From contig NZ_SETE01000002.1 in the NCBI RefSeq assembly GCF_004152935.1, positions 62,001 through 126,000 of the forward strand: a stretch of 64,000 bases of DNA, given 5' to 3'. The stretch is from Brumimicrobium glaciale. GTDB lineage: Bacteria > Bacteroidota > Bacteroidia > Flavobacteriales_D > Crocinitomicaceae. The stretch's first letter is position 1; the number at the start of each line of letters is the position of its first letter. Below are positions 337 to 63,428 of this stretch, in pieces. The notes below the pieces were generated by a model. It worked only from the letters and a program-made list of their open reading frames with translations. It made no database searches and was not told where the DNA came from. The position numbers and the translations under genes are program-made.

Positions 337-1296
337 ATGAAATCAATAAAAATACTCATTATGAGCAGCCTTGTTTTATTCAGTGTGAGTTCATGCAGTG
401 AAAACGAGAAAATCACCTCAAATAGAGGTAAAGTAAAGTTTGAAACAATTTCTATCAGCGGAAAAATCGCGGGAAGAATTTCAAAAATATATGTTGAAGA
501 AGGACAGCAAGTAAAGAAAGGCGATACGTTGGCTTTCATTGATGTACCTGAAGTTTTAGCGAAAATGATGCAGGCTGAAGGAGCAATTATGTCGGCGCAA
601 GGTCAGTTAGAAATGGCTTTTAATGGAGCAACTGCAGAGCAATTGAGTCAGGTAAACCAAAAACTAATCTCTGCTAAAGCACAATTAGACTTCGCACAAG
701 AATCTTTCAATCGTTTGGAAGGAATGTACAAGGATTCATTGGTGAGTCAGCAACAATTCGACGAAGTAAAAATGAAGTTAGCAATGGCAAAAGCACAAGT
801 AGATGCTGTTGAAGCAAAGAAACAAGAAGTCACTAAGGGAACACGTTCAGAACAAATTAGCCAAGCCAAAGGTCAATTAAATCGGGCTTTAGGAGCGAAA
901 GAAGAAGTTGCTGTGGCATCGAATGAAAAATACTTGATTGCACCAATCGATATGTCGATTGAAACAATCAGTTTAGAAGAAGGGGAATTGTTGACACCTG
1001 GATACACATTGTTTAACGGTTACAAAAGAAACAGCGTGTATTTTCGTTTTACAATCCCTGAATCTAAGATTTACGACTATAAAGTAGAACAAGAACTGAA
1101 CCTTGTAAATCCTTATACCAAAGAAGAATACGTAGGTAGAATTGTAGCAATAAAACAATTGGCGCAATATGCTGATATCACAAGTACATCGCCTTTGTAT
1201 GAATTGGATGAATCCATTTATGAATTGAAAGTTGTTCCTGTTACTGAAGTTTCGGACCGTCCATTTTACTTAAACAGTACAGTACTTATTAAATAA
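337..1296 (+). CDS. HlyD-family periplasmic adaptor (membrane fusion) lipoprotein
   Basis: A 319-residue protein with a short signal peptide ending in VSSC, so probably a lipoprotein anchored at Cys20. Residues about 38-70 are the first half of a lipoyl/biotinyl-like barrel (GRISKIYVEEGQQVKKGDTL). Residues about 75-190 are a coiled-coil hairpin rich in A, Q and K, followed by the second half of the lipoyl domain (LIAPIDMSIETISLEEGELL) and a beta-barrel domain. The family links an inner-membrane transporter to a TolC-type duct. It lies between the TolC-like gene and the ABC-2 permease, and the next start is 8 bases after its stop, so the three are almost certainly one operon. The substrate cannot be read from the sequence. 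Confidence 0.85.
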   Translation: MKSIKILIMSSLVLFSVSSCSENEKITSNRGKVKFETISISGKIAGRISKIYVEEGQQVKKGDTLAFIDVPEVLAKMMQAEGAIMSAQGQLEMAFNGATAEQLSQVNQKLISAKAQLDFAQESFNRLEGMYKDSLVSQQQFDEVKMKLAMAKAQVDAVEAKKQEVTKGTRSEQISQAKGQLNRALGAKEEVAVASNEKYLIAPIDMSIETISLEEGELLTPGYTLFNGYKRNSVYFRFTIPESKIYDYKVEQELNLVNPYTKEEYVGRIVAIKQLAQYADITSTSPLYELDESIYELKVVPVTEVSDRPFYLNSTVLIK

Positions 1297-1304
1297 TAAT
1301 TACT

Positions 1305-2489
1305 ATGAAAAAGTTTATAGAATTACTCCGAGTAGAGTTTAAACGTATCTTTTCGAATGGTGTATTGTTAGCAATATTCTTTGGAGCACCCATTGTTTAT
1401 GGATTCCTATTCGGATATGTTTATCAACAAGCGAAAGTAGTTGATTTACCAATCGTTATTGTCGATCAGGACAGAAGTCCAATGTCAGACAAGATTATTG
1501 ATGCTTTTCAAGACAATGAAGGTTTATTGGTGAAAGACGTAAGATTTACCGCTGGAAACATCATCGCAGAAATGCCGATAGAGCAATATGCAGCAGTGAT
1601 AACTTTGCCTAGTGACTTTGAAGCTCAATTGCTACAGAAAAAACATCCTGAAGTGCGTGTGGACCTGAATATGGCGAATATTTTAAACGCAAATACGGCG
1701 AGTAAAAGTATTCAATCTGTACTCATGACAATCAACGCAGGAATAGAAATTGAAGGATTACAAAAGCAAGGAATGCATCCAGATCAAGCGATGACCTCTT
1801 ATGAAAGCTTCAAAATTAATTTCAATAAACTATATAATTCCACAGGAAACTACGTGACATTTATGTTGCCCGGTTTATTGGCTGGGATAATGCAACAAAT
1901 TATCTTATTGGCAATGGCGCTAGTATTTTCACGTGACTTTGAAGATGGATATTTTGGAACTTTGATTGGTCACAGTAAATCATCACTGTATCACATTTTA
2001 TTAAAAGCAACACCATTTTGGTTAATGCTTCCGATAATGTGGTTGGCTGTAAGTTTATTCTTACCTTATTTTAGTGTGGATGCTGCGGTATTCAATTCAC
2101 CTATGTTGGTGTTAGCAACGCTTTTAACGCTAGCTTCAATGTTTATCGGAATGTTGTTTTCAATTGCAATTCCAAGTCAATTAAAAGCGACGGAACTGTT
2201 AATGGTGATTTCCACTCCAGCGTTTATCTTAAGTGGATTCACTTGGCCAACAATGGCTATTCCTGCAGCGATTACAAATATTGCTCAGTTTATTCCATTG
2301 ACACAATTCCTAGAAGGATTTAGAAAAGTCGCTTTCTATGGTGGAGACATGGCTTCGATACGAACTGAAATTAACATGTTAGTATTGATCACAATCGTTG
2401 CATTTGTTGCGATGGTGGTTTTATTGCAAGTAAAGATTTTTTTGTTCAATAAGAAAGCGAAAAAGGGTAGTGCTGTAGTTGAAAGATAA
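1305..2489 (+). CDS. ABC-2 type transporter permease (YhhJ-like)
   Basis: A 394-residue inner-membrane protein. One transmembrane helix lies at about residues 18-38, followed by a large periplasmic domain (residues about 40-185, with IVIVDQDRSPMSDKIIDAF typical of YhhJ/YbhR-type permeases). A cluster of five helices fills about 185-385, ending in a basic cytoplasmic tail. In the family it is the membrane half of an ABC exporter. It is the last gene of the TolC-HlyD-permease operon. No ATP-binding subunit gene lies between or after these genes, so the ATPase must be upstream of the window or encoded elsewhere. Confidence 0.85.
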   Translation: MKKFIELLRVEFKRIFSNGVLLAIFFGAPIVYGFLFGYVYQQAKVVDLPIVIVDQDRSPMSDKIIDAFQDNEGLLVKDVRFTAGNIIAEMPIEQYAAVITLPSDFEAQLLQKKHPEVRVDLNMANILNANTASKSIQSVLMTINAGIEIEGLQKQGMHPDQAMTSYESFKINFNKLYNSTGNYVTFMLPGLLAGIMQQIILLAMALVFSRDFEDGYFGTLIGHSKSSLYHILLKATPFWLMLPIMWLAVSLFLPYFSVDAAVFNSPMLVLATLLTLASMFIGMLFSIAIPSQLKATELLMVISTPAFILSGFTWPTMAIPAAITNIAQFIPLTQFLEGFRKVAFYGGDMASIRTEINMLVLITIVAFVAMVVLLQVKIFLFNKKAKKGSAVVER

Positions 2490-2535
2490 TTAAGGGATAA
2501 GTTTTAATAATTCAAAAAATTAGTTCCTTGAGTTG

Positions 2536-2618
2536 AGTAGAATCTAGCGGAACGTAAAGTAAAGTTAGGTTCTACTTTTTGTTTTAAATAGTAAACTCCG
2601 CCCAAATTGAGCGGAGTT
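2536..2618. terminator. Two hairpins between convergent genes
   Basis: AGTAGAA (2536-2542) pairs with TTCTACT (2570-2576) and is followed by a T run, fitting a terminator for the efflux operon. A second stem AACTCCGC/GCGGAGTT (2594-2601 and 2611-2618) follows and could stop transcription from the catalase side. Assignment rests on dyad symmetry and convergent position only. Confidence 0.5.
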
Positions 2619-2644
2619 CGTTATTTAAAGTTGTAAATAAACTA

Positions 2645-4108
2645 TTAAGTCACATCAACAGTATTAATATCAATATTCAAAGCATCAGCAACACCTTTTC
2701 CATAGGCTGGATCTGCTTTGTAGCAATTTCCAATATGTCTTTCTTGGATAAATTGTTCAGCTCCACCAATATTCCTAGCAGTATTTTCAAACAAAACTTG
2801 TTGCTGTTCTGGTGACATTATTCTGAATAGATTTCCTGGTTGAGTATAATAATCATCGTCTTCTCTGTGATCATAATGGAAAGCATCGCCATCTAATTGT
2901 GAAGCAGGTTCTGCAAATTCTTTACTTTCTTCCCATTGTCCGTAGCTGTTTGGTTCATAATGTATAGTTGAACCTTCGTTTCCATCCACGCGCATTGAAC
3001 CATCTCTGTGCGGATTATGGAAGGGACATTTTGGTTTATTCACCGGAATTTGATAATGATTTACACCTAATCTATAACGCTGTGCATCTCCGTAGGAAAA
3101 TAATCTTCCTTGTAACATTCTGTCCGGAGAAAATCCAATTCCTGGAACTACATTCGCTGGATTAAAAGCAGCTTGCTCAACATCTGCAAAGTAATTCTCT
3201 GGATTTCTGTTCAATTCCATAACACCGACATCATGCAAAGGATAATCGGAGTGAGGCCAAACTTTCGTTAAATCGAATGGATTAAAACGGTAGTCTTTCG
3301 CATCTTCTTCAGGCATGATTTGAATCTTTAGATTCCATTTTGGAAAATCGCTTTTCTCAATAGCATCAAACATATCACGCTGATTACTTTCCCTGTCTTT
3401 TCCAACTAAGGTTTCAGCTTCTTGATCTGTTATCGTTTCAATACCTTGAGCTGTTTTGAAATGGAATTTCACCCAAGAACGTTCATTATTTGAATTTAAC
3501 ATGCTGAAAGTGTGACTTCCGTAACCATTCATGTGTCTAAACGATTTTGGAATTCCTCTATCACTCATCGTAATTGTCACTTGGTGTAAAGCTTCAGGTA
3601 GGAGAGACCAGAAATCCCAATTGTTATTTGGGCTTCTTAAATTCGTTTTAGGATCACGTTTTACAGCTTTATTTAAGTCAGGGAACTTGTAAGGATCTTT
3701 CAAAAAGAAAACAGGTGTATTGTTTCCTACTAAATCCCAATTTCCTTCTTCGGTGTAAAATTTCATTGCGAAACCTCTGATGTCTCTTTCTGCGTCTGCA
3801 GCACCTCTTTCTCCTGCAACAGTTGAAAAGCGAGCAAACATTTCTGTTTTCTTACCGATTTCAGAGAATATTTTAGCTTTCGTATATTTTGTGATATCAT
3901 GCGTAACGGTAAAAGTTCCAAAAGCTCCAGAACCCTTTGCATGCATTCTTCTTTCAGGAATAACTTCTCTGTCAAAATGTGCTAGTTTTTCTAAAAACCA
4001 GAAATCTTCCATCAACATAGGACCTCTTTTCCCTGCTGTTTTAACATTTTGATTTTCTGCAATTGGTCTTCCAGAAACGGAGGTTAGTTTTTTCTTTTTG
4101 TCTTCCAT
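2645..4108 (-). CDS. katA: Catalase (monofunctional haem, small-subunit clade)
   Basis: A 487-residue cytoplasmic enzyme that converts hydrogen peroxide to water and oxygen. Catalytic residues are in place: distal His56 in [12 protein letters not shown], Asn129 in VGNNTPVFF, and the proximal haem ligand Tyr339 in [14 protein letters not shown]. The spacings from His56 to Asn129 (73) and to Tyr339 (283) equal those of human catalase. The [10 protein letters not shown] signature region is present. Length near 490 fits clade-3 small-subunit catalases. It stands alone, convergent with the efflux operon, and no OxyR-type gene is adjacent. The start is the first Met, in an A-rich context typical of this phylum. 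Confidence 0.97.
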
Positions 4109-4443
4109 AATAAATATAATTTTATATAATTCTTTTATCGTTTTTAATGCTGAGGACCATTCAAATGCTGAAATCAGTGATTCAGAATTAGATTTTTTAA
4201 AATCGTCTCCTTCGCCAATTTAAGAATAATAAATTATATAGGAGGAGTTAAATTGGTGTTTGATTTTAGATAAAAGGAATGAAGTTATTAATAGAGGGAG
4301 ACTACTTTTTTTTTTGTAATGCAGAACCTTTTTATTAAGTTACTACATTTTTAATTGTACTTACTTTATTTACATTAAGGCAGTTGAAAGAATAAACTCA
4401 CTAACCTTTATGAAATATTCAATGTTTTTTTATCTGTTTAAAA
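4109..4443. other. Upstream region of the catalase gene
   Basis: No gene is seen here. The stretch is AT-rich and must carry the catalase promoter on the minus strand, but I could not pick a convincing -33/-7 pair or an operator. Confidence 0.4.
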
Positions 4444-5082
4444 TTACCATAATCTCCCAGCTCTTTTATTGGTATCTGTCTTAATATTGTATTCTAATTT
4501 TTTAGTCTTTCCGTTGTGCATGTTCACCAATAATGTTTGTGGTGTTGAGTCATCATTTACTCTATAAAACCCCCAATACTTAGCCTCCTAATCGGAAACC
4601 TCCACTGCTTCAATATGAGGGAGTTTAAACCCATTTTCATTCGCAATTTCTAATGCTTTCCAATAAGTATATTGCAATGTGTCGTAGTCTCTGAAAATGT
4701 ATGGAACTGTTGAGTCATGCGATGTCCATTGGCCAATAGGTGAGTTGTTTGGATAAATTGCTAAGCCACCATAACTTAATTTATTGTTTCTAAAATAAGT
4801 AACCGAGTCCATTTTTTGCTCCAAATTGATTCTGTGTATTGCGAATAATCCCTCATTATTTAGAAAATATTTTTTGATAATTCTAAATTCAGCGCTATCG
4901 GTTTCAATATATCTGTGAGCTGAATCTGAATACTCTTTAACTTGATAGTTTTCTGGGTATTTTACTTTGGATTTAAGGGCTAATTTTTCCAAATCATCAT
5001 CAGTTGTATTTTTCTCATTTGAATTACAAGAGAGAAAAATACAACTAATGAATAATAAGTATAGGACGATGCTTTTCATCAA
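4444..5082 (-). pseudogene. Lipoprotein gene interrupted by an in-frame amber codon
   Basis: The intact first part (4588-5082, 164 residues) begins with a lipoprotein signal peptide ending in FLSC, then a charged mature domain. A TAG at 4588-4590 ends it. The same frame then continues without a stop for 47 more codons to a TAA at 4444-4446 (it reads EAKYWGFYRVNDDS onward), with amino-acid use like the first part. The simplest reading is a roughly 212-residue lipoprotein with a nonsense mutation. Alternatives are a sequencing error or chance openness of the downstream frame. I do not recognise the family. The gene lies just downstream of an outer-membrane protein gene on the same strand (29-base gap). 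Confidence 0.6.
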
Positions 5083-5111
5083 TAAAGTTAAATTTTAAAA
5101 TATTACAAACC

Positions 5112-6005
5112 TTAATTAAAAGTAACCCTAACACCAATTCCTTGGCTAATTCTGGTATTTGTTATTGTGTACAATTCTGGAATTGAAACAACATTTAATT
5201 CTGGTTTTATCTCATAAAATAAATGTGTTCTTTTCCAAAATTCTCTTTTATTTCCTATTCTGAAATCAACTCCAAATGGTATGTATGCGGAGAATCCATA
5301 ATTCATTTCGTTTTTGTAATTTTCTGTAACTCTTTCATCAGAATTATAGTTGCTGTTGTTAATAGAAACATCGTTGTTTTGAGACTCCGTGCTTACAAAC
5401 GTAGAATAATAAATCTGCGTTTTCGCATTGATAGAAACTCCCGCTGTTAGACCGATTCCTGAGTATAAAGACCAACGTGCTTCTGGATTTGTTCTAAATA
5501 TTAAAGCCGCATTAAAACGAAGCTGATCAGAAGAATAATTGGCTCCAGAATGCTGCGTGTAAACAGAATCAACAAAAGTTTGAGCTCCTGTTTGAGAGGA
5601 TGTTAGCGTGTCGAATGGATATCGGGTATCTTCAGAGTAATTTGAGGAAATATGTGTTCCAGAAGAATAGCTAAATCCTAAACGCAAAAGTGGATTGGAC
5701 TTATAGGATGTTTTTTCCTTATTGCTGAATTTTATTCCCACCATTACTGAAAGTGCTGCACTTCCTGAAATTCCATAACCATTTGATTGTGAAAAGTTTT
5801 GGGGATATTCTTCAAGTAAATCTGATTGAGGAGCTAATGTTTGAAAATCGTTAATATTTCCTTTTTGATAACGTTCAAATAGTGGTCCTAAATGTATATG
5901 AATATCATCAAATTTGACTCTTTTTATAGGTTCTGTTTCTTGAGAAAATGAATTAAAAGAGAAAATTATAAGAGCAAAAAAAGTTAATAATTTGAAAGTT
6001 TTCAT
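5112..6005 (-). CDS. Putative outer membrane beta-barrel protein
   Basis: The chosen start (Met at 6003-6005) gives 297 residues and places a classic signal peptide first (MKTFKLLTFFALIIFSFNSF, cleavage before QE). The frame is open 20 codons further upstream, but that would bury the signal peptide. The mature part alternates polar and hydrophobic residues in short strands with Gly/Ser/Asn-rich loops and ends in GVRVTFN, as expected for a barrel in the outer membrane. I recognise no specific family. It is followed by the interrupted lipoprotein gene on the same strand. Confidence 0.6.
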   Translation of the reverse strand: MKTFKLLTFFALIIFSFNSFSQETEPIKRVKFDDIHIHLGPLFERYQKGNINDFQTLAPQSDLLEEYPQNFSQSNGYGISGSAALSVMVGIKFSNKEKTSYKSNPLLRLGFSYSSGTHISSNYSEDTRYPFDTLTSSQTGAQTFVDSVYTQHSGANYSSDQLRFNAALIFRTNPEARWSLYSGIGLTAGVSINAKTQIYYSTFVSTESQNNDVSINNSNYNSDERVTENYKNEMNYGFSAYIPFGVDFRIGNKREFWKRTHLFYEIKPELNVVSIPELYTITNTRISQGIGVRVTFN

Positions 6006-6201
6006 GTTAATAATTTTTAGTTGATAGTTTTCTTTAAAGTCATTTTTAAAGAGTCTAATTAGCATTTCTCGAGTAACGTTTGAATAGTTGTATTTATTGT
6101 GAAATATTAGTATTTAAGATTTTGACTCATTTTGTAGAAAATTAATTGAGTAACAGGGTGTTGTAATAAATTTTAAATTATTTTTCATTTTCAAATTTAT
6201 T

Positions 6202-22413: not shown

Positions 22414-22547
22414 TGGCCGATGTTTACTTTTCTTTTTTTTTAATTTTTGATAACCTACAAGGTCAGCATATTTGAAAAATGTTGAAAGTCCGCAGGCTAG
22501 CATTTTTTTTACTTCAGATATTTAAATTATATTTGAATAAAAAAGTA

Positions 22548-22763
22548 ATGGCTAAAGAAATAACAATAAGGATAGATGAACGTTCAAAGTTTGGTCAGAT
22601 TGTGTTGCAAATGATTAAAATGGGTGTTTCAGAGGAGAAAGGAATCCAGCTGATATCAGCACCAAACAAAACTACTATTGAATCCATCGAAAATATTAAT
22701 TCTAAAAAGGAGCTGACTAAAACTGAAAATCATTCAGATTTGATGAACAAACTTAACACATAA
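22548..22763 (+). CDS. Antitoxin of a YafQ-type toxin-antitoxin pair
   Basis: The start at 22548 gives a 71-residue protein. MAKEITIRIDERSKFGQIVL has the short beta strand followed by a helix expected of a ribbon-helix-helix N-terminus (DinJ/RelB type). The C-terminal half is polar and probably unfolded until it wraps the toxin. It ends two bases before the toxin start, the usual tight order antitoxin then toxin. In such pairs the antitoxin neutralises the toxin and represses the operon. The family assignment of the antitoxin itself comes mainly from its neighbour. A short dyad around 22475-22508 (AAAAATG against CATTTTT) precedes it and could be an operator or terminator. Confidence 0.7.
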   Translation: MAKEITIRIDERSKFGQIVLQMIKMGVSEEKGIQLISAPNKTTIESIENINSKKELTKTENHSDLMNKLNT

Positions 22764-22765
22764 TT

Positions 22766-23041
22766 ATGTTTGAAATTGAATTCGAATCAACTTTCAAAAA
22801 AGATTATAAGAAGGCTAAGAAAAATAAGAGAAATCTTGATTTACTCGAAGAGGTTTTACTACTGCTAAGAAAGAAAGGCAGTTTACCATCATCATACAAA
22901 CCACACAAATTAAAAGGAAATTATAAAGGTTTTTGGGAATGTCATATTCAACCCGATTGGTTGCTAATATGGAAATTAGATAGTAAAAACAAGATCATAT
23001 ATTTATCAAGAACAGGTAAGCATTCAGATCTTTTTACTTAA
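22766..23041 (+). CDS. YafQ/RelE-family mRNA interferase toxin
   Basis: A 91-residue protein with the complete YafQ signature: His47 in KPHKLKGNYKG, His60 and Asp64 in WECHIQPDWLLIW, and His86 in SRTGKHSDLF. These match the catalytic His50, His63, Asp67 and His87 of E. coli YafQ, a ribosome-dependent endoribonuclease that cuts mRNA in the A site. Length and order are normal and the catalytic residues are intact, so it should be active. It is co-transcribed with the upstream antitoxin gene. A palindromic repeat follows 16 bases after its stop. Confidence 0.92.
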   Translation: MFEIEFESTFKKDYKKAKKNKRNLDLLEEVLLLLRKKGSLPSSYKPHKLKGNYKGFWECHIQPDWLLIWKLDSKNKIIYLSRTGKHSDLFT

Positions 23042-23910: not shown

Positions 23911-26900
23911 ATGAAAATTACAAACGCCCATCAAAACAATCTTAAAAACATCAATTTATCCATTCCTGAAAATCAATTGATTGTGGTGACTGGATTATCG
24001 GGTTCTGGGAAGTCATCTTTAGCAATGGGCGTTATTGCGAATGAAGGATACCGTTACTTTTTGGAGAGTTTACCGGCTTATAATCAACAAAATGGAATGT
24101 TAATTCCAACTGCTGAAGTGGATGAAATTTCTGAACTTCCTCCAGTTATTAAAGTGGAACAGTCAAAGCGTTTTCAGTCTACAAATACCACTTTTGGGAC
24201 GCTTTCAGAGCTAACGGATGTTTTTAGAATTCTGTTTGCTCGCTATTCAGCTGGTGAAAAAATGAGTAAATCGCTCTTTTCTTTTAACAATCCAAAAGGA
24301 GCTTGTGAAGTGTGTAATGGTATTGGTCAACAGGAATTTATTGATATCAATAAATTAGTAGGTGACGAAAATAAAACATTAAGAGAAGGGGCGATAGTCA
24401 CCACTTTACCAAATGGTTATATTGTTTATTCTCAAGTAACAGTTGAAGAGTTAGATAAGTTGTGTACGGCGCATGGATTTAGTGTAGACATTCCATGGAA
24501 AGACCTTTCTGAAGAGCAAAAAGATGTTGTTTTAAATGGAAGCGAACGCATTAAAGTCTTTTATGGAAAGCACACTTTAGAATCGCGCTTGAGGTGGACA
24601 GGATTTAAAGCTAAACCGCGTGAAGAAGGCTTTTACAAAGGTGTTCTTCCCATTATGCAAGACATTTTAAAGCGAGATAGAAACGTAAATATCTTGAAAT
24701 TTGTGAGTTCTAGATTGTGTCCAAGTTGTCAAGGCGCTAGAATAAAAGCAGAACATTTAAAGTATAAATGGCAAGGATTGAACTTTAATTCGTGGATGAA
24801 TTACTCCTTGAATGAATTGTCTGAAAAGCTAGCTATTCAAGACTTAACAGAAGGTGAAAAGGTTTTAGTTGATAAAATTCGCAATCAATTATTCGACTTA
24901 ACTCGTTTAGGAATGGGAGAATATCGATTGAGTTCTCCAAGTTTGGATATTTCTTCTGGAGACGCGCAAAGAATAAAATTGATCAATCAAGTAAACTGTA
25001 ATTTACAAGGAATTCTCTATGTTTTTGACGAACCATCCATTGGATTATCAGCAGCTTACCAAAGTTATTTACTTCATATTCTGAACAGATTGATTCTCCG
25101 TGGAAATACCGTTATGGTGGTTGAACATGATTTGAATTTTATAAAATCTGCAGATTGGATTATAGAATTAGGACCGGAATCTGGCGTAAATGGAGGTGAA
25201 GTGGTTTATAATGGACCGATTGCAGCGTTTTTGAATGCTGAAAACCTTGAAAGTCCGACATTATCAGCGTTAAAATCAGAATCTGAGAAGGCTGTGAAAG
25301 CTTCCAAAACGCCTAAGTTATTAAAGGCAGATTCATTTCAACCGAGTTCGCAGCAATTGACTGTAATTACTAGGAAAACGCCTGAAGTAATTCAGAACAT
25401 TAATGATTTCTGTGAAAAGAATGAATTGAATGTAACTACAGTTTCTGATCAACCGATTGGTAAAACGCCACGAAGTAATCCTTCCACTTATGTTGGTTTA
25501 GCGGATAAAATACGTGATTTACTAGCTAAAACTCCTGAAGCTAAATCTTTAAAATTAGTAAAAGGTGCTTTTTCGTTCAATAATAAAACGGGAAGATGTG
25601 AAGCCTGCGAAGGTGCTGGAGTAATCACGCTTTCAATGAGTATTTTAGGAAATATAAATCAGATTTGTCCGACTTGTAATGGAAAACGCTTTAAACTAAA
25701 AGTTCTACAAGTAAAATGGAACAACAAGAATATTGCTGAAATCTATAATTTAAGTATTGAAGAAGCATCTAAATTCTTTAAAACTGAAAAGAAAATTACT
25801 GAAATATTGTCTTTGATGATACAGTTGGGTCTAGGCTATATCAAGCTCGGACAGCCATCAAACACTTTGTCTGGTGGAGAAGCACAACGGATAAAATTGA
25901 CAAAGTATTTCGCTAAAAAATCGACAAAAACATTCTTACTACTCGAAGAACCGAGTATTGGATTGCATTATCAGAATGTCCGTCAACTAATAGAAGCACT
26001 TCATCAATTGAAAAGCAGTACCGCAGGAATTATTTGCTTTGAAAATCATCCGCTTTTTCAATCTGAATGTGATGTATGGGTTGACAATGCTATAAAAGTA
26101 GAACCAATAGATTTCAAAAAAGAGGAAGATCAACGAAGAGATTTGATTTCTATAAAAGGAGCTAGGACGCATCATTTAAAAAATTTGAATCTAGATTTAC
26201 CTAAGAATCAATTGACTGTCGTGACTGGAATTTCAGGTTCTGGAAAATCTTCTTTGGTAATTGATACGCTGCATGGCTATGGATTACAAGAAATGAGTAA
26301 GCAATTTTCCAGTTATCAGCAGTCACGAGTTGGTGCTAGTTTTCAATTCGATGTAGACAGTATTACTGGATTAACGCCGACAATTTGTATTACAAGAAAG
26401 CAAAAGAATTATTCTCAACGTTCTGATATAGCTAAGCAAACAGGAATTGAAAAGATTTTGCGTTTTGCATTCTCCCGAAAATCTCAGTTCGAAGGATTGG
26501 AATTATCAGCCAGTCATTTTTCAAATAATCATGAATTAGGCAGATGTCCAGTATGTGAAGGAGTTGGAGAGGAGTTATTGCCTGATGTTGATAAGGTGGT
26601 TTTAAATCAAGCGTTAAGTATTTCTGAAGGATTGTTTGAACACAACAAAGTACTTGATTACTATGGTCAACGAGGAAGTCAATACATGGCGATTTTAAAG
26701 GAAGTTGGTACACAATATGGTTTCACACTTGAAACGCCGTTTACAGCTCTTAACGACGATCAGAAAGAAATCATATTTAAAGGAACAGCTGAAACAATTT
26801 GGAAAACGGATTGGATTTATAAAACGAAAACAAATGAAGGAACTCAAGCTTTATCGATGAAGTGGGAGGGAATCTTCAATTATTTGAAAAACGAATACTA

Positions 26901-28410
26901 TTTAACCCGAAAGAATAAATACACGAACAATCTGCTTTCGCTAATGTCCCAAAAAGAATGTAGCGTTTGTCATGGTAGTGGATTAAAGCAAGAAAGATTA
27001 GAAATTAAAATTGCGGGAAAATCGATTTTCGATATAAAGTCAATGGATTTCAAAGCATTGGAAAATTGGTTGAATAAAAACAGCGAAAGTGATTCTATTG
27101 ATGCAAAGCTAATTAATCAAATTCAGCCGCATATCTCCAGTATAATAGACAGAGCGAAACAATTACACATTGATCATCTTCAATTGACAAGAAAATCTGC
27201 AACGCTTTCTGGCGGAGAAAATCAGCGTGTTGAACTGATTAAGCAACTCAATAGTCCGCTCAAAGGAATTACTTATTTACTCGATGAACCTTCCGCAGGA
27301 TTATCAAATGACAATATTCCAGACTTGATTCAGATTCTAAATGAACTTATCGAAAAGGGAAATACGGTAATTGTAATAGAGCATAACAAAGAAATTATTC
27401 TAGCAGCAGAAAACATTATTGAGATTGGCCCTAAAGCAGGAAAGTATGGAGGAGCAATTACTTATCAAGGTTCACCGGAAGTATTTATTGAACAACCTGA
27501 TAGTCATCCATTTCTTAAAGAGCAATCGAATTCTATAAATCTAAAACCAGGAAAAGAACACATTTCAATTCATAAATTAAAGAAACATACGCTTGAAAAA
27601 GACCTATTAGAAATTCCAGTTGGCGGAATTACCGCAATAACAGGAAAGTCAGGAGTTGGAAAAACGACTTTGTTAAAGGAAATCTTGATTCCAACTATTC
27701 AAAATGGCAAACCAGTTAATTGTGAATCAATTGACTTTCCAAAGCAATACGAAGGAGTTCATTATTTCGAATCCAAGAAACTGAGAACTTATGCAGCTAC
27801 TTTATTGGTGGATTATTTGGGATTACTCAATGAAATAACAAAGATCTTCGCAGCAGAGACAGGACTTAAAGCCAAAGACTATTCCTATAAAACTAAGTCA
27901 AGTCAATGTCCGAATTGTAAAGGTAAAGGCTTTCTAGAAACGAGTTTAGACATTGCCGCCAATCACATTGAGCAATGTGAAGTTTGTGATGGAAAACGTT
28001 ATCAAAAGCATATTCTGGAACATCAAATTGATTCTAAAAGCATTGCAGATGTACTTTCGATGAATTTAAGCGAGGTAAAAGAATGGCTTAGAGAATTTAA
28101 AGTATCAATTAAGATGATTAAATTCTTGGATAGATTAGACCAAATTGGACTAGGACATCTTTCCTTAGATCAAACTGTTCAATCCTTATCATCAGGCGAA
28201 CAACAAAGGCTGTTGTTATTGAACTGGCTTCAAGATGAACCAAAAAATGAGTTGTTTATTTTGGATGAACCAAGTATAGGATTGCATTATGCTGATATTG
28301 ATTTGCTTTTTTCGATGTTGGAGGAATTAAGTGAGGAAAATGATGTGTTGGTGGTTGAGCATAATTTGTATTTGTTGGGTAGGATAGGGGTTGGGATGGT
28401 TTTGAAGTAG
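23911..28410 (+). CDS. Tandem double UvrA-like ABC ATPase (1499 residues)
   Basis: The family (UvrA) is a DNA-damage-sensing ABC ATPase with two nucleotide-binding domains, normally about 940 residues. This protein has four. Walker A motifs: GLSGSGKSS (28-36), none at the second site (TVITRKTPEVIQ, 484-495), GISGSGKSS (773-781) and GKSGVGKTT (1245-1253). Signature motifs lie at 345-354, 653-660, 1099-1106 and 1426-1433. Walker B motifs: VFDEPS, LLLEEPS, LLDEPS, ILDEPS. Zinc CxxC pairs are at 132/135, 270/273, 563/566 with 586/589, 879/882, 1017/1020, and 1333/1336 with 1356/1359. The gap from Walker A to signature in each half (about 315 residues) is some 130 shorter than in UvrA, so the UvrB-binding domain is probably missing, as in UvrA2/DrrC-type proteins. 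Role inferred: DNA or drug-adduct tolerance without UvrB. Confidence 0.85.
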   Translation: MKITNAHQNNLKNINLSIPENQLIVVTGLSGSGKSSLAMGVIANEGYRYFLESLPAYNQQNGMLIPTAEVDEISELPPVIKVEQSKRFQSTNTTFGTLSELTDVFRILFARYSAGEKMSKSLFSFNNPKGACEVCNGIGQQEFIDINKLVGDENKTLREGAIVTTLPNGYIVYSQVTVEELDKLCTAHGFSVDIPWKDLSEEQKDVVLNGSERIKVFYGKHTLESRLRWTGFKAKPREEGFYKGVLPIMQDILKRDRNVNILKFVSSRLCPSCQGARIKAEHLKYKWQGLNFNSWMNYSLNELSEKLAIQDLTEGEKVLVDKIRNQLFDLTRLGMGEYRLSSPSLDISSGDAQRIKLINQVNCNLQGILYVFDEPSIGLSAAYQSYLLHILNRLILRGNTVMVVEHDLNFIKSADWIIELGPESGVNGGEVVYNGPIAAFLNAENLESPTLSALKSESEKAVKASKTPKLLKADSFQPSSQQLTVITRKTPEVIQNINDFCEKNELNVTTVSDQPIGKTPRSNPSTYVGLADKIRDLLAKTPEAKSLKLVKGAFSFNNKTGRCEACEGAGVITLSMSILGNINQICPTCNGKRFKLKVLQVKWNNKNIAEIYNLSIEEASKFFKTEKKITEILSLMIQLGLGYIKLGQPSNTLSGGEAQRIKLTKYFAKKSTKTFLLLEEPSIGLHYQNVRQLIEALHQLKSSTAGIICFENHPLFQSECDVWVDNAIKVEPIDFKKEEDQRRDLISIKGARTHHLKNLNLDLPKNQLTVVTGISGSGKSSLVIDTLHGYGLQEMSKQFSSYQQSRVGASFQFDVDSITGLTPTICITRKQKNYSQRSDIAKQTGIEKILRFAFSRKSQFEGLELSASHFSNNHELGRCPVCEGVGEELLPDVDKVVLNQALSISEGLFEHNKVLDYYGQRGSQYMAILKEVGTQYGFTLETPFTALNDDQKEIIFKGTAETIWKTDWIYKTKTNEGTQALSMKWEGIFNYLKNEYYLTRKNKYTNNLLSLMSQKECSVCHGSGLKQERLEIKIAGKSIFDIKSMDFKALENWLNKNSESDSIDAKLINQIQPHISSIIDRAKQLHIDHLQLTRKSATLSGGENQRVELIKQLNSPLKGITYLLDEPSAGLSNDNIPDLIQILNELIEKGNTVIVIEHNKEIILAAENIIEIGPKAGKYGGAITYQGSPEVFIEQPDSHPFLKEQSNSINLKPGKEHISIHKLKKHTLEKDLLEIPVGGITAITGKSGVGKTTLLKEILIPTIQNGKPVNCESIDFPKQYEGVHYFESKKLRTYAATLLVDYLGLLNEITKIFAAETGLKAKDYSYKTKSSQCPNCKGKGFLETSLDIAANHIEQCEVCDGKRYQKHILEHQIDSKSIADVLSMNLSEVKEWLREFKVSIKMIKFLDRLDQIGLGHLSLDQTVQSLSSGEQQRLLLLNWLQDEPKNELFILDEPSIGLHYADIDLLFSMLEELSEENDVLVVEHNLYLLGRIGVGMVLK

Positions 28411-28721: not shown

Positions 28722-29285
28722 ATGAGTAGAAATTATAGATTCCACAATCCAAATGCCCCATATTTCGTAAGTTTTGCTGTTGTTGAATGGCTGAATGTTT
28801 TCGATCAAGATAAATTCAAGGATATTCTAGTTGATAATCTTAATTATTGTCAAAAAGAGAAAGGTATGGAAATTTACGCTTGGGTTATAATGCCAACTCA
28901 TGTTCATTTAGTGTTTCGTAGCACGACTGAAACAACTCCTGGAAGATTGCTTGGAGAATTTAAATCACACACCAGTAAGAAAATTGTTAAGTTGATAAAT
29001 GAAAATTATGAAGAGAAAAATAGACGATTTTTCATGGAAACTTTTAGACGTCATGGAAAATATCGATCAAATGTCAAGAATTTTCAATTTTGGCAACAAA
29101 ACAATATGCCTATCGAACTATGGAGTAATAAAGTAATAACCCAAAAGATTAGATATATTCACAATAACCCTTTAAAGAAGGGAATGGTTTTTAATCCTGA
29201 GGATTATTTATATAGCAGTGCGGTAGATTATAGCGGCGAACAAGGATTAATAAATGGAGTGGTGGTTGTGCCGTTGCTCTGGTAA
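28722..29285 (+). CDS. REP-associated tyrosine transposase (RAYT, IS200/IS605-like Y1)
   Basis: A 187-residue HUH transposase. The metal-binding HUH motif is His60-Val-His62 in MPTHVHLVF. The catalytic tyrosine is Tyr145 in KIRYIHNNPLKKG, the typical RAYT context. The N-terminus NYRFHNPNAPYFVSFAVVEW is also typical of the family. These proteins nick and join single strands at palindromic REP sequences and are thought to spread them; unlike IS200 they are single copy and flanked by REPs. Here the gene is bracketed by blocks A-B (28428-28632) and A'-B' (29324-29483), and related palindromes lie at 22.4-23.8 kb. The reading frame is intact. Confidence 0.9.
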   Translation: MSRNYRFHNPNAPYFVSFAVVEWLNVFDQDKFKDILVDNLNYCQKEKGMEIYAWVIMPTHVHLVFRSTTETTPGRLLGEFKSHTSKKIVKLINENYEEKNRRFFMETFRRHGKYRSNVKNFQFWQQNNMPIELWSNKVITQKIRYIHNNPLKKGMVFNPEDYLYSSAVDYSGEQGLINGVVVVPLLW

Positions 29286-30132: not shown

Positions 30133-31134
30133 TTATTTCTGAATAATACTCAAAGCCAATTGCTCAGATGCTGATAATTCATAACTCTTTTTCGGTTCTT
30201 TAAAAGGATTTTTAAGCGGAATCTCTTGATTATCGGCAGACTTAAAAATAGCTGGATGAACATAATAATCTCTACAAACTGTTGGTGTATTTCCTAGTGA
30301 TTCAGCAACCATTTTAATGAGAATATTACTGAATTTTCTCCTTGGAAACTGACTGCTTTGTTCTATTGCGTGCGGATATAATTCAACCGCTAGCCTTGAG
30401 GCAACCCAAGTTCTAAAGTCTTTACTCGAGAAATCAGAACCAATTATTTCACTGATGAATTCATTGACATCACTGCTGTCTATATTTTGAAAACCCCCTG
30501 ATTCATCTTGATATCTGAAAATTTCATAGCCAGGTAATTCAGCGCTTTTCTTTATGTTTTTAATCAACTCAGCATCATCGATTAAAACTTCTCTTTCTTG
30601 ATTACTTTTTCCTTTATATTGGAATATTAATTTCGATTTACTAATTGTTAAATGTTTTCTGCGAAGAGTTGTTAAGCCATAGGTTTCATTTTCTTGGGCA
30701 TAATATTGATTTCCTATACGAATTCCATATTCGTCTAATATCATAACTAATAATGCCAAAACTTTATCCTTATTCCATTCTTCTAACTCAATATTTTCTT
30801 GACAAATCTTTCTGATTTCGGGCAGTTTGCTGACAAAGTTCTCAATGCGCTCAAACTTTTCTTCTTGTTTAATCTTCTCCCAAAGTGAATGATAGATGTA
30901 TTGTTTTCTTCCTTTAGCATCTCGGCCAATGGCTTGAACATGTCCATCGTCGAATTTACAAATCATCACTTGATCCCACATCGGAGGAATGACAAGTCCT
31001 TTCAACCGTTTTAATATCTTTTTATCAATAATCTTAGTGCCGTTTTCATCAATAAATTGATAGCCACGACCCACTTTCTTTCGTTGAATACAAAGCGCGG
31101 TATCGTCGATATGTTTGAGTTTTTCTTTCTTCAT
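30133..31134 (-). CDS. DNA topoisomerase IB (poxvirus-like)
   Basis: A 333-residue type IB topoisomerase, which relaxes supercoils through a 3'-phosphotyrosine intermediate. The N-terminal domain has GRGYQFIDENGTKI and GLVIPPMWDQV, and DAKGRKQYIYHSLW is conserved in bacterial TopIB. In the catalytic domain, KDFRTW (Arg241) and LGNTPTVCRDYYVHP supply the active site. Tyr291 aligns with vaccinia Tyr274, and Asn282 replaces vaccinia His265, as is usual in bacterial members. Length is normal. It appears monocistronic. Confidence 0.92.
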   Translation of the reverse strand: MKKEKLKHIDDTALCIQRKKVGRGYQFIDENGTKIIDKKILKRLKGLVIPPMWDQVMICKFDDGHVQAIGRDAKGRKQYIYHSLWEKIKQEEKFERIENFVSKLPEIRKICQENIELEEWNKDKVLALLVMILDEYGIRIGNQYYAQENETYGLTTLRRKHLTISKSKLIFQYKGKSNQEREVLIDDAELIKNIKKSAELPGYEIFRYQDESGGFQNIDSSDVNEFISEIIGSDFSSKDFRTWVASRLAVELYPHAIEQSSQFPRRKFSNILIKMVAESLGNTPTVCRDYYVHPAIFKSADNQEIPLKNPFKEPKKSYELSASEQLALSIIQK

Positions 31135-61070: not shown

Positions 61071-63428
61071 TTATCTAATTAAATTAACCATTCCTTTACT
61101 CATTTGGCCAGTTGAATTAGTTATTCCTTTGAATCTTACAATCCAAATATAAACTCCTTCTTCAACCATACGATTATCATAACTTCCATCCCAGCCAATT
61201 TCCGCATTATTTGATTCGAAAATTATTTCTCCCCAACGATTATAAATTTGCAATTGGTAGTTCATAGGATCAAATTCTGATGTGAAAATTGGTTTGAAAT
61301 TATTATTAAATTTATCTCCATTTGGTGTAAATGCGTTAGGAATAAAATAATCGAGTTTCTCTTCAGTAATCAGTTCAAATTGTGCTGTGTCAGAACATCC
61401 ATTTTCGTTTAAAGCTATTAAAGTTATCATGAATGAATCTCCATTTGATGCTTTAAAAGTATGAAAAGCATTAAAATTATTTTCTTTTGGTGAATCATCT
61501 CCAAAATCCCAAGTAAAGTTATTCGCGTAACTTGACTCATTAGTGAAATTTACATCAGGTTCACCAATTGGAATTGTAATTGGATCAGTTGAAAATTGAG
61601 TTATTGGATTAGGCATAACTTCTATATAATTCGCTTTAGAATTACTCGCTACACACCCATTTTCGTCAGTTACAGTCAGTGTTACACTATATATACCAGC
61701 AGAAGTATATAAATTTGAAGCCGAATTCATTTGATTACTCGTGTTTCCATCTCCGAATTCCCATAAACAATCAACTAAAGTTGTATTCGAAGTAATATTG
61801 AAATTGACAAGATGAGATTCGCAACCTTTTAAAAAGTCTGCTGTAAAATTGGTTGACGGTAAATTGTTTACTTCAATTTCAATCTGATCTGTATATAAAC
61901 ATCCTTCTACTGTGATTGCGTTGTAAATATATATTCCTTCCATCATTGATGCTGGATCAAAAGTCCCAAGGTTTCCTCCTGTTAAAGTTGAAGCACCTGT
62001 CCAAGTTCCATTGTTAGCTGGGTTCCCTCCTAGCTGATCAAATAAATTCAATGTTGCAGAATTATCACATAAATTAATCGTGTTGTTATTTCCAGCGTTT
62101 CCAGTTGAATTAATGTTTACCGTGACAGTTGAACTTTCTTGACATGTTCCAGTTCCAACAGTATAAGTGTAAATTCCAGCGTTCATTGTTGTTGGATTAA
62201 ATGTTCCAAGATTTCCACCAGTTAAAGTTGAAGCACCTGACCAAATTCCATTATTATCAGGATTTCCTCCAAGCTGATCAAATAAATTCAATGTTGCAGA
62301 ATTATCACATAAATTAATCGTGTTGTTATTTCCAGCGTTTCCAGTTGAATTAATATTTACAGTGACCGCTGAACTTCCTTGACATGTTCCAGTTCCAGCA
62401 GTATAAGTGTAAATTCCAGCGTTCATTGTTGTTGGATTAAATGTTCCAAGATTTCCTCCTGTTAAAGTTGAAGCACCTGACCAAATTCCATTATTATCAG
62501 GATTCCCTCCTAATTGATCAAATAAATTCAATGTTGCAGAATTATCACATAAATTAATCGTGTTGTTATTTCCAGCGTTTCCAGTTGAATTAATATTTAC
62601 TGTGACCGTTGAACTTTCTTGACATGTTCCAGTTCCAACAGTATAAGTGTAAATTCCAGCATTCATTGTTGTTGGATTAAATGTTCCAAGATTTCCACCA
62701 GTTAAAGCTGAAGCACCTGTCCAAGTTCCATTATTAGCAGGGTTCCCTCCTAGTTGATTAAATAAATTCACTGTTGGAGAAGTTGAACAAATATTCAAGT
62801 TTCCATTTGAACCCGCGTTGGAAGAACTGCAGTTAACAGTCACATCATCAATTCTCCAGTATTCGGATCCAGCCCAAGTTTGAACAGAAATTCTAATTTG
62901 TAAATTACTTCCAGTATTCGGAATACAACCGGTTGAGTAGGTCATCAATGGAGTATCGTCAGACGCAACGACATTTATATTACCACAAGCACCACTACAA
63001 TAAGATGAATTACTAGGGTCAACCCATCCATTTCCATCGATATTGTATTGAAAACGAACCCAATCCACAGAATTGCAACCCGTTCCACAACCTTCCATCG
63101 ATCCAACACTTTCTATACTGAAATCAATTTCTATGTTATTGCAATTTGAAATATCAATAGGTGAGGTAGTTTCCCAAATTGCCTCTCCATTGGTGTCATT
63201 ACCTTCAAAAACGCCAGCTTTAACTTCCCAATAATCCCCCGACAAACATGTTGGACATGAGGATGACCAATTTATTCCATTTGCAGTTCCAGATGTTGTT
63301 CCGTCTGCACTGTTAAATGATTCTTGAAATATGATTTGAGCATTGAGATTCGTTATGGAAGAGAAAATAATAATGGTATATATTACCATTATCAAAAACC
63401 TTCTATTGTAATCTATTTGAATTTTCAT
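61071..63428 (-). CDS. Repeat-rich surface protein with PKD domains and gliding-type C-terminal domain
   Basis: The start at 63426-63428 gives 785 residues with a signal peptide (FLIMVIYTIIIFSSITNLNA). The N-terminal 180 residues form a jelly-roll-like domain with many cysteines. Then come four nearly identical units of about 80 residues (each with NLFDQLGGNP, GASTLTGGNLGTF, GIYTYTVGTGTC). PKD-like domains follow (CLWEFGDGNTSN and TWDFGDDSPK). The end is a gliding-motility-associated (CHU_C) domain (IPNAFTPNGDKFNN, LQIYNRWGEIIFES, GVYIWIVRFKG), a type B T9SS signal. It is likely a secreted adhesin-like protein. Confidence 0.85.
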   Translation of the reverse strand: MKIQIDYNRRFLIMVIYTIIIFSSITNLNAQIIFQESFNSADGTTSGTANGINWSSSCPTCLSGDYWEVKAGVFEGNDTNGEAIWETTSPIDISNCNNIEIDFSIESVGSMEGCGTGCNSVDWVRFQYNIDGNGWVDPSNSSYCSGACGNINVVASDDTPLMTYSTGCIPNTGSNLQIRISVQTWAGSEYWRIDDVTVNCSSSNAGSNGNLNICSTSPTVNLFNQLGGNPANNGTWTGASALTGGNLGTFNPTTMNAGIYTYTVGTGTCQESSTVTVNINSTGNAGNNNTINLCDNSATLNLFDQLGGNPDNNGIWSGASTLTGGNLGTFNPTTMNAGIYTYTAGTGTCQGSSAVTVNINSTGNAGNNNTINLCDNSATLNLFDQLGGNPDNNGIWSGASTLTGGNLGTFNPTTMNAGIYTYTVGTGTCQESSTVTVNINSTGNAGNNNTINLCDNSATLNLFDQLGGNPANNGTWTGASTLTGGNLGTFDPASMMEGIYIYNAITVEGCLYTDQIEIEVNNLPSTNFTADFLKGCESHLVNFNITSNTTLVDCLWEFGDGNTSNQMNSASNLYTSAGIYSVTLTVTDENGCVASNSKANYIEVMPNPITQFSTDPITIPIGEPDVNFTNESSYANNFTWDFGDDSPKENNFNAFHTFKASNGDSFMITLIALNENGCSDTAQFELITEEKLDYFIPNAFTPNGDKFNNNFKPIFTSEFDPMNYQLQIYNRWGEIIFESNNAEIGWDGSYDNRMVEEGVYIWIVRFKGITNSTGQMSKGMVNLIR
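61970..62800. repeat. 240-bp tandem repeats within the gliding-type gene
   Basis: Blocks at about 62041, 62281 and 62521, plus a diverged one near 62761, repeat every 240 bp in frame and are almost identical at the DNA level. Such arrays change copy number by recombination. Confidence 0.9.

Follow-up and report, generated by a model that had tools for sequence, protein, structure and literature searches.

A double-length UvrA without UvrB-binding domains and with one degenerate ATP site in Brumimicrobium glaciale

The double UvrA gene

The DNA analysed here (the window) comprises 64,000 nucleotides of Brumimicrobium glaciale, positions 62,001 to 126,000 of contig NZ_SETE01000002.1. A single open reading frame (ORF) in the window, at positions 23911-28410 of the forward strand (stop codon included), encodes a protein of 1499 residues that consists of two UvrA halves, A and B. 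An ORF of the same length is found in relatives. The canonical UvrA model TIGR00630 scores 1073 bits on the whole protein, and 579 and 509 bits on halves A and B when these are run separately. The head-to-tail double UvrA that had been proposed from the letters alone (the sequence-only reading) is thus borne out. Each half contains two UvrA nucleotide-binding units, an insertion domain and a zinc hairpin, so that the hallmarks of class I are present twice over. All parts of the gene described below lie on the forward strand and are given in window coordinates.

Unit 1 (residues 1-463, 23911-25299) holds ATP-binding domain I, the insertion domain and signature I of half A. Its Walker A motif GLSGSGKS (residues 28-35, 23992-24015), which belongs to the proximal site of half A, is intact. 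The insertion (DNA-binding) domain (PF17755) spans residues ~145-265 (24343-24705). The signature of unit 1 reads ISSGDAQR (residues 347-354, 24949-24972); it is altered, and is the partner of the degenerate distal site of half A. Unit 2 follows at 25300-26130. Its Walker A motif, the site of which is at residues ~482-500 (25354-25410), is deleted. Walker B reads EEPS, with EE for DE at residues 679-680 (25945-25950), and the switch reads ENH (residues 711-713) against EHN in UvrA, which puts Asn for His at residue 712 (26044-26046). All these defects of unit 2 had been noted in the sequence-only reading and are confirmed. A KTPRSN motif (residues 518-523, 25462-25479), a zinc hairpin (residues 563-589, 25597-25677) and the signature LSGGEAQR (residues 653-660, 25867-25890), the intact partner of the proximal site of half A, are kept in this unit.

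The halves meet at a linker, residues 725-745 (26083-26145). The earlier division into residues 1-745 and 746-1499 is correct as to the two halves, and their boundary is refined here to the linker. Unit 3 (residues 746-1213, 26146-27549) holds ATP-binding domain I, the insertion domain and signature I of half B, with a Walker A motif at residues 773-780 (26227-26250) and a less conserved insertion domain (PF17755) at residues ~892-1012 (26584-26946). Its Q-loop glutamine is replaced by Arg829. Unit 4 (27550-28407), which has also lost the Q-loop glutamine, carries a Walker A motif (residues 1245-1252, 27643-27666), a zinc hairpin (residues 1333-1359, 27907-27987) and the signature LSSGE (residues 1426-1430). 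In the unit 4 stretch at residues ~1286-1305 (27766-27825), where UvrA has DQSPIGRTPRSNPATY, the motif is lost.

The pattern GxxxxGK[ST] occurs in the protein exactly three times, at residues 28, 773 and 1245, in agreement with the three intact Walker A motifs counted before. The CxxC-x19-CxxC zinc finger occurs exactly twice, at residues 563 and 1333, as had been stated, but this inventory of zinc modules needs a correction, since units 1 and 3 each contain a further module of the CxxC...CxxC type. The UvrB-binding domain (PF17760) was not found in half A or half B at E 1e-5, which fits the likeness to UvrA proteins without this domain that the sequence-only reading had drawn. The same search was positive for the two other UvrA proteins of the genome (L005, 102 bits; L006, 77 bits). 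The G+C content of the gene (0.35, against 0.33 for the window) gives no clear signal of recent transfer, which was rejected on this basis.

Occurrence and ancestry

Named genomes yielded 143 relatives on scanning, and the 80 best were retained. Among these, 72 are encoded by a single ORF of 1493-1696 residues, so that neither an assembly join, which had been named as a possible refutation, nor a frameshift can be the origin of the fusion. Halves A and B were not seen as separate genes at any locus opened. A few loci are short or broken: in genome G226 the ORF stops at the contig end, and G193, G134 (which also holds N), L187 and L213 have broken frames. The nearest named relatives come from Brumimicrobium species, and wherever the record names a group, this group is the Bacteroidota.

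In a survey of 150 genomes of the family, 9 of the 10 members of the genus have the full-length protein, as does one other genus, and more divergent doubles occur in two further genera. At the level of the order, where the sequence-only reading had suggested that the distribution be checked (Flavobacteriales), the half-A region was matched in 35/399 genomes at E 1e-25, and at the level of the class a strong match was obtained in 5/295 genomes, the genome of origin being included in both counts. A sixth match in the class survey was weak, and the protein concerned (L143, 958 residues) groups with ordinary UvrA1 in the tree.

Mobile elements were also considered. Only weak matches were found among plasmid records (2/72,556, 30-31% identity) and among phage records (31/50,697, all below 60% identity, and 27-31% among the ten matches listed, which are all without annotation). 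These resemble ordinary UvrA more than the double-UvrA family, and carriage by plasmids or phages was therefore rejected. Some of the phage-labelled records without annotation, for example OR848183 and OR844990, match the UvrA insertion region at 27-31% and are perhaps host DNA.

The counts given below rest on an alignment of 94 doubles (93 distinct ones plus the double of genome G575), of which 55 are of the type found in the window (window-type) and 39 are others. Dropped beforehand were loci at contig ends (L159, L170, L203, L207, L209 and L212), broken loci (L187 and L213), unnamed doubles of less than 1400 residues, and rows contained in another row. The linker between the halves is exactly 21 residues long in all 55 window-type doubles, and 25 to 60 residues long in the other subgroup. 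The 16 zinc cysteines of the doubles are each kept in 93 or 94 of the 94 rows.

In trees of the halves (48 and 31 rows out of 64 prepared), halves A and B each form one clade with support 100/100, and the inner order of the two clades is alike. Both halves together are separated from UvrA1 and class II UvrA with support 92/93. Two of the three class II single-length proteins sampled group with UvrA1, apart from the halves, and the third is a long branch. The pattern is in line with one tandem duplication that gave rise to both halves, which, as judged from these trees, is the most likely origin.

The genome (4.27 Mb) contains two further UvrA genes, found by search with the UvrA DNA-binding domain, which encode L005 (933 residues) and L006 (927 residues), and elsewhere a clear uvrB. 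The L006 gene (362-3145 of its locus, reverse strand), the product of which has a UvrB-binding domain, adjoins an ABC exporter-like gene, and the protein branches apart from the main UvrA1 rows. In another Bacteroidota species, two UvrA paralogues are present, one of which is required for peroxide tolerance; a fusion is not mentioned in the available part of that source (PMC3747172).

ATP sites across the doubles

According to the available part of PMC6486640, the proximal site of UvrA is formed by ATP-binding domain I and signature II, and the distal site by ATP-binding domain II and signature I. A site was called intact if it had four parts, namely Walker A, the Walker B aspartate, the switch histidine and the two signature glycines; the Q-loops were left outside this definition, and the proximal site of half B was scored on the signature serine and the second glycine only.

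By this measure, the distal site of half A is incomplete in 92/94 doubles. All four parts are present in 2/94 and all four are missing in 59/94. Taken singly, Walker A is kept in 28 rows (and is absent from all 55 window-type doubles), the Walker B aspartate in 7, the switch histidine in 5 and both signature glycines in 2. Of the 28 doubles that keep the Walker A motif of unit 2, 26 lack the other three parts. The other three sites are nearly always complete. The proximal site of half A is so in 93/94 rows, the remaining row being cut at the site; the Walker A lysine of unit 1 is present in 93/94, with one gap, and the LSGGE signature of unit 2 in 94/94. For the distal site of half B the count is 90/94; G210 and G202 are truly decayed there, L218 reads LSAGE, and a fourth row is cut. 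The proximal site of half B, under the relaxed scoring of its signature, is complete in 93/94, and the remaining row is cut. The residue five positions before the signature follows the same division. The available part of PMC6486640 gives the rule Gln for proximal and Arg for distal sites; the three putatively live sites of the window protein obey it, and the dead site has Ser.

Some of the unusual rows deserve description in their own right. The doubles of G210 (L093) and G202 (L094) come from another family of the order, and their distal site is decayed in both halves. L218 is an unbroken double from a metagenome-assembled genome of an uncultured member of the Flavobacteriales; its distal site of half A is complete and its distal signature in half B is LSAGE. 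The double of G575 (L142, ~1247-6103 of its locus) is divergent and has all four Walker A motifs and an in-frame stop; its half B has a short cysteine stretch at the expected place of the UvrB-binding domain.

The Arg-Ser-Asn motif and the conservation of the halves

The Arg-Ser-Asn motif is present in unit 2 of 94/94 doubles and in unit 4 of 0/94. The single UvrA rows all have it (18/18; 17 by pattern, and L138, which reads ARSN in the sequence). The corresponding RTPRSN stretch is located at residues 671-676 of the sequence of 3pih, and presumably touches DNA. As the motif is kept in unit 2 even where the ATP site is gone, it is not kept there for ATP binding.

L218 and G575, the only two doubles whose half A distal site is complete, both lack Arg-Ser-Asn in unit 4. 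G575 is the first branch in the half-A clade, and the position of L218 is unsure. The combination of a complete distal site with a missing unit 4 motif suggests that the motif of half B was lost first and the distal site of half A later. The state of the unit 2 Walker A motif changes at least four times on the half-B tree, and three of these changes are forced by well-supported branches; the tree has long branches.

Conservation was expressed as the mean identity over up to 400 random pairs. The insertion domain of half A is better conserved than that of half B, both in the window-type doubles (0.81 vs 0.61) and in the others (0.79 vs 0.51), and the same holds for the stretch that contains the zinc hairpin and signature II (0.82 vs 0.66 and 0.76 vs 0.55, respectively). 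The least conserved stretch is that of the lost Walker A motif of unit 2 (0.36 in window-type doubles, 0.48 in the others). Over the whole halves, the identities of A and B are 0.73 vs 0.66 in the window-type doubles, and 0.63 vs 0.54 in the others.

Predicted fold

The structure prediction that the sequence-only reading had called for was done with AlphaFold2 for half A and for residues 300-1499, with 36 rows each out of 60 aligned. The half A model has a mean predicted local distance difference test score (pLDDT) of 82.8 and a predicted template modelling score (pTM) of 0.77, and half A (residues 1-730) best matches UvrA 3zqj (Z 35.3, root mean square deviation (rmsd) 7.4, 700 residues aligned). 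The model of residues 300-1499 has pLDDT 85.7 and pTM 0.77, and half B in this model matches UvrA 9gxl (Z 36.6, rmsd 4.2, 616 residues aligned). Both halves superpose on whole UvrA chains, and the fold predicted for each is that of a complete UvrA minus the UvrB-binding domain. Since each half matches UvrA both by model score and by predicted fold, the concern that only one half might be complete, also raised in advance, is settled.

Relation to known proteins

Fused UvrA proteins and class II UvrA proteins are both already known. The double UvrA shares the fold, the motifs and the domain order of canonical UvrA (TIGR00630), but each of its halves scores below the cut-off of that model (729.8) and lacks the UvrB-binding domain. 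In the latter respect it resembles the class II proteins, represented by UvrA2 of Deinococcus radiodurans (2vf7), Ecm16 (7sh1) and DrrC, which also lack this domain and, like the double UvrA in each of its halves, have an insertion domain and two zinc modules. Half A superposes on 2vf7 with Z 33.7 (rmsd 6.0, 698 aligned) and on Ecm16 with Z 33.8 (rmsd 2.7, 557 aligned); for half B the values are Z 31.3 (rmsd 8.3, 722 aligned) and Z 35.3 (rmsd 3.2, 577 aligned). Unlike the class II proteins, the double UvrA has two fused halves, one dead ATP site and the Arg-Ser-Asn motif on one side only. According to the available part of PMC10192343, the known class II proteins listed there are 756-874 residues long, and Ecm16 contains four nucleotide sites. 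With 1499 residues, the window protein is not a chain of single length, and it does not have four ATP sites per dimer, as the distal site of half A is without Walker A, the Walker B aspartate and the switch histidine.

A double-length UvrA model, NF001885/PRK00635 (1809 positions), exists in NCBIfam. We take it to describe the chlamydial UvrA and to be of fused make-up as well, and two fused halves are what it has in common with the window protein. The latter scores 663 bits against a cut-off of 3054 for this model, and thus does not belong to that family. Asymmetric ABC transporters of the TAP1/2, CFTR and BmrCD type have one composite site that is decayed on both sides, in Walker parts and in the partner signature, and another that is live. 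The likeness to these transporters is one of principle only, the window protein being UvrA-like. With the terms used, the literature searched yielded no account of tandem UvrA proteins in Bacteroidota and none of an asymmetric UvrA. As far as this literature shows, a fused UvrA without UvrB-binding domains and with complementary losses in its halves appears to be a new form.

Discussion

We consider it fairly probable that the protein is a covalent UvrA pseudo-dimer that is independent of UvrB, like UvrA2 and Ecm16, and that divides the labour between half A, for reading DNA, and half B, for ATP turnover. The gene would have arisen by one tandem duplication of UvrA, and the halves would pack around DNA like the two chains of an ordinary UvrA dimer. 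As neither half has a UvrB-binding domain, the protein would be expected to act without UvrB, in the manner of UvrA2 and Ecm16. Half A would retain the insertion domain, the Arg-Ser-Asn motif, the zinc hairpin and the proximal ATP site, its distal site being dead; half B would retain two ATP sites, each with Walker A, Walker B, switch and signature, and would have lost Arg-Ser-Asn. DNA would then be clamped asymmetrically. Distorted or ligand-bearing DNA may be read mostly via half A, and ATP turnover mainly in half B may serve to bind, test, release or strip what is found. For the more specific idea of a split machine, in which half A reads DNA with a proximal ATP site only and half B provides turnover and has given up Arg-Ser-Asn, we regard the case as evenly balanced. 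Least certain is the role in the cell. The protein may confer tolerance of small molecules bound to DNA, or of bulky lesions, outside the UvrABC path, a tentative proposal that we hold with less than even confidence.

Dimerisation of the two halves within one chain is suggested by the alike trees of the halves, the fixed 21-residue linker and the pTM of 0.77 for residues 300-1499. Of the one-chain asymmetric dimer that the sequence-only reading had put forward, the asymmetry is upheld by the dead site throughout the family, the known pairing of sites and the mirrored loss of the motif, and it is the intra-chain dimerisation that is suggested rather than established.

Several observations weigh against the division of labour or its elements. 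The Q-loop glutamine of unit 3 is Arg in 88/94 doubles, and that of unit 4 is lost in all 55 window-type doubles and kept in 35/39 of the others, so that the sites of half B can only be assumed to be live. G210 and G202 have lost the distal site of half B as well, and L218, which like G575 retains all four parts of the half A distal site, reads LSAGE at the distal signature of half B. The signature of unit 4 is mostly LSSGE in window-type doubles, and LSSGD at the signature of unit 1 is therefore by itself no proof of a dead site. That the RTPRSN stretch contacts DNA is our assumption. Half A is more conserved throughout, so that the difference in the DNA-facing parts is partly a general one. 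The pTM of 0.77 applies to residues 300-1499 of the chain, and the 92/93 support for a single duplication is not starred. Finally, no recurrent neighbour or operon that would name a function was found; the best neighbour groups reach 7/72 loci.

The asymmetry might also be the outcome of relaxed decay without any division of labour. Only the proximal sites would then be needed after the fusion, the distal sites and the half-B Arg-Ser-Asn motif would have drifted, and the protein would be a plain UvrA2 with spare parts. The repeated changes in the unit 2 Walker A state (at least four, three of them forced), the graded states of the distal site (28/94 with Walker A, 26 of these without the other three parts) and the decay of the distal site in both halves of G210 and G202 are all as this explanation would have it, and a single early event inherited by all doubles would look one-sided as well. 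However, drift is unlikely to be so consistent: the distal site is complete in 2/94 doubles for half A and in 90/94 for half B, Arg-Ser-Asn is always lost in half B, and among the eight stretches compared, conservation is highest in the half A insertion domain and zinc/signature II region. We therefore consider relaxed decay unlikely, at roughly one chance in four. Less likely still is a head-to-head pairing of two double chains, of A with A' and of B with B', with the linker as a mere tether. UvrA is a homodimer, and the 25 to 60 residue linkers of the other subgroup would suit such an arrangement. Yet the complementary losses in A and B are more easily explained if A pairs with B, and the constant linker length in 55/55 window-type doubles and the pTM of a model that holds parts of both halves speak for the same pairing.

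Two further explanations concern the function, and both seem to us very improbable. If the protein served nucleotide excision repair as an additional damage sensor and still passed lesions on to UvrB, the uvrB gene of the genome would provide the partner, and the available part of PMC6486640 describes UvrB-contact residues also in signature domain II. Against such a hand-over, PF17760 is found in the two other UvrA proteins of the genome but in neither half of the double UvrA. Moreover, Ecm16, which also lacks PF17760, protects E. coli without UvrB, its insertion domain setting the substrate, as stated in the available part of PMC10192343. An anti-phage role, or another one unrelated to DNA damage, would fit the patchy presence (35/399 genomes of the order), the neighbours that vary between loci, and the matches to PADLOC models, the best of which is mad3 (269 bits in 4 stretches). 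These matches probably reflect shared ABC ATPase sequence, as many unrelated ATPase models match too; as a defence identity, the PADLOC matches (mads_3 and others) were judged generic and were rejected. Among the neighbours, which were not scanned against PADLOC, no group occurs at more than 7/72 loci.

If the split machine is real, a UvrA dimer needs no more than one side that reads DNA and one distal ATP site, and the sensor can be directional on DNA. Work on UvrA treats it as a symmetric dimer, with a proximal and a distal ATP site on either side, in which any mutation hits both sides. In the double UvrA, each side is encoded by its own part of a single gene, and one side is naturally without its distal site, so that individual sites and individual sides can be mutated within one chain. 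The role of the distal site and the need for two DNA-reading sides would thus become directly testable. The asymmetry is also shared by many Bacteroidota, in which it marks a widespread UvrA that has no UvrB-binding domain and of which no study was found in the literature searched.

Flanking genes

Upstream of the double UvrA gene lies a small gene pair (22479-23041, forward strand). The second gene encodes a YafQ/ParE-type toxin according to Pfam, and the first has no Pfam match. Just downstream, an IS200-like (Y1) transposase gene is found at 28722-29285 on the forward strand. A bacterial topoisomerase IB gene lies at 30133-31134 on the reverse strand.

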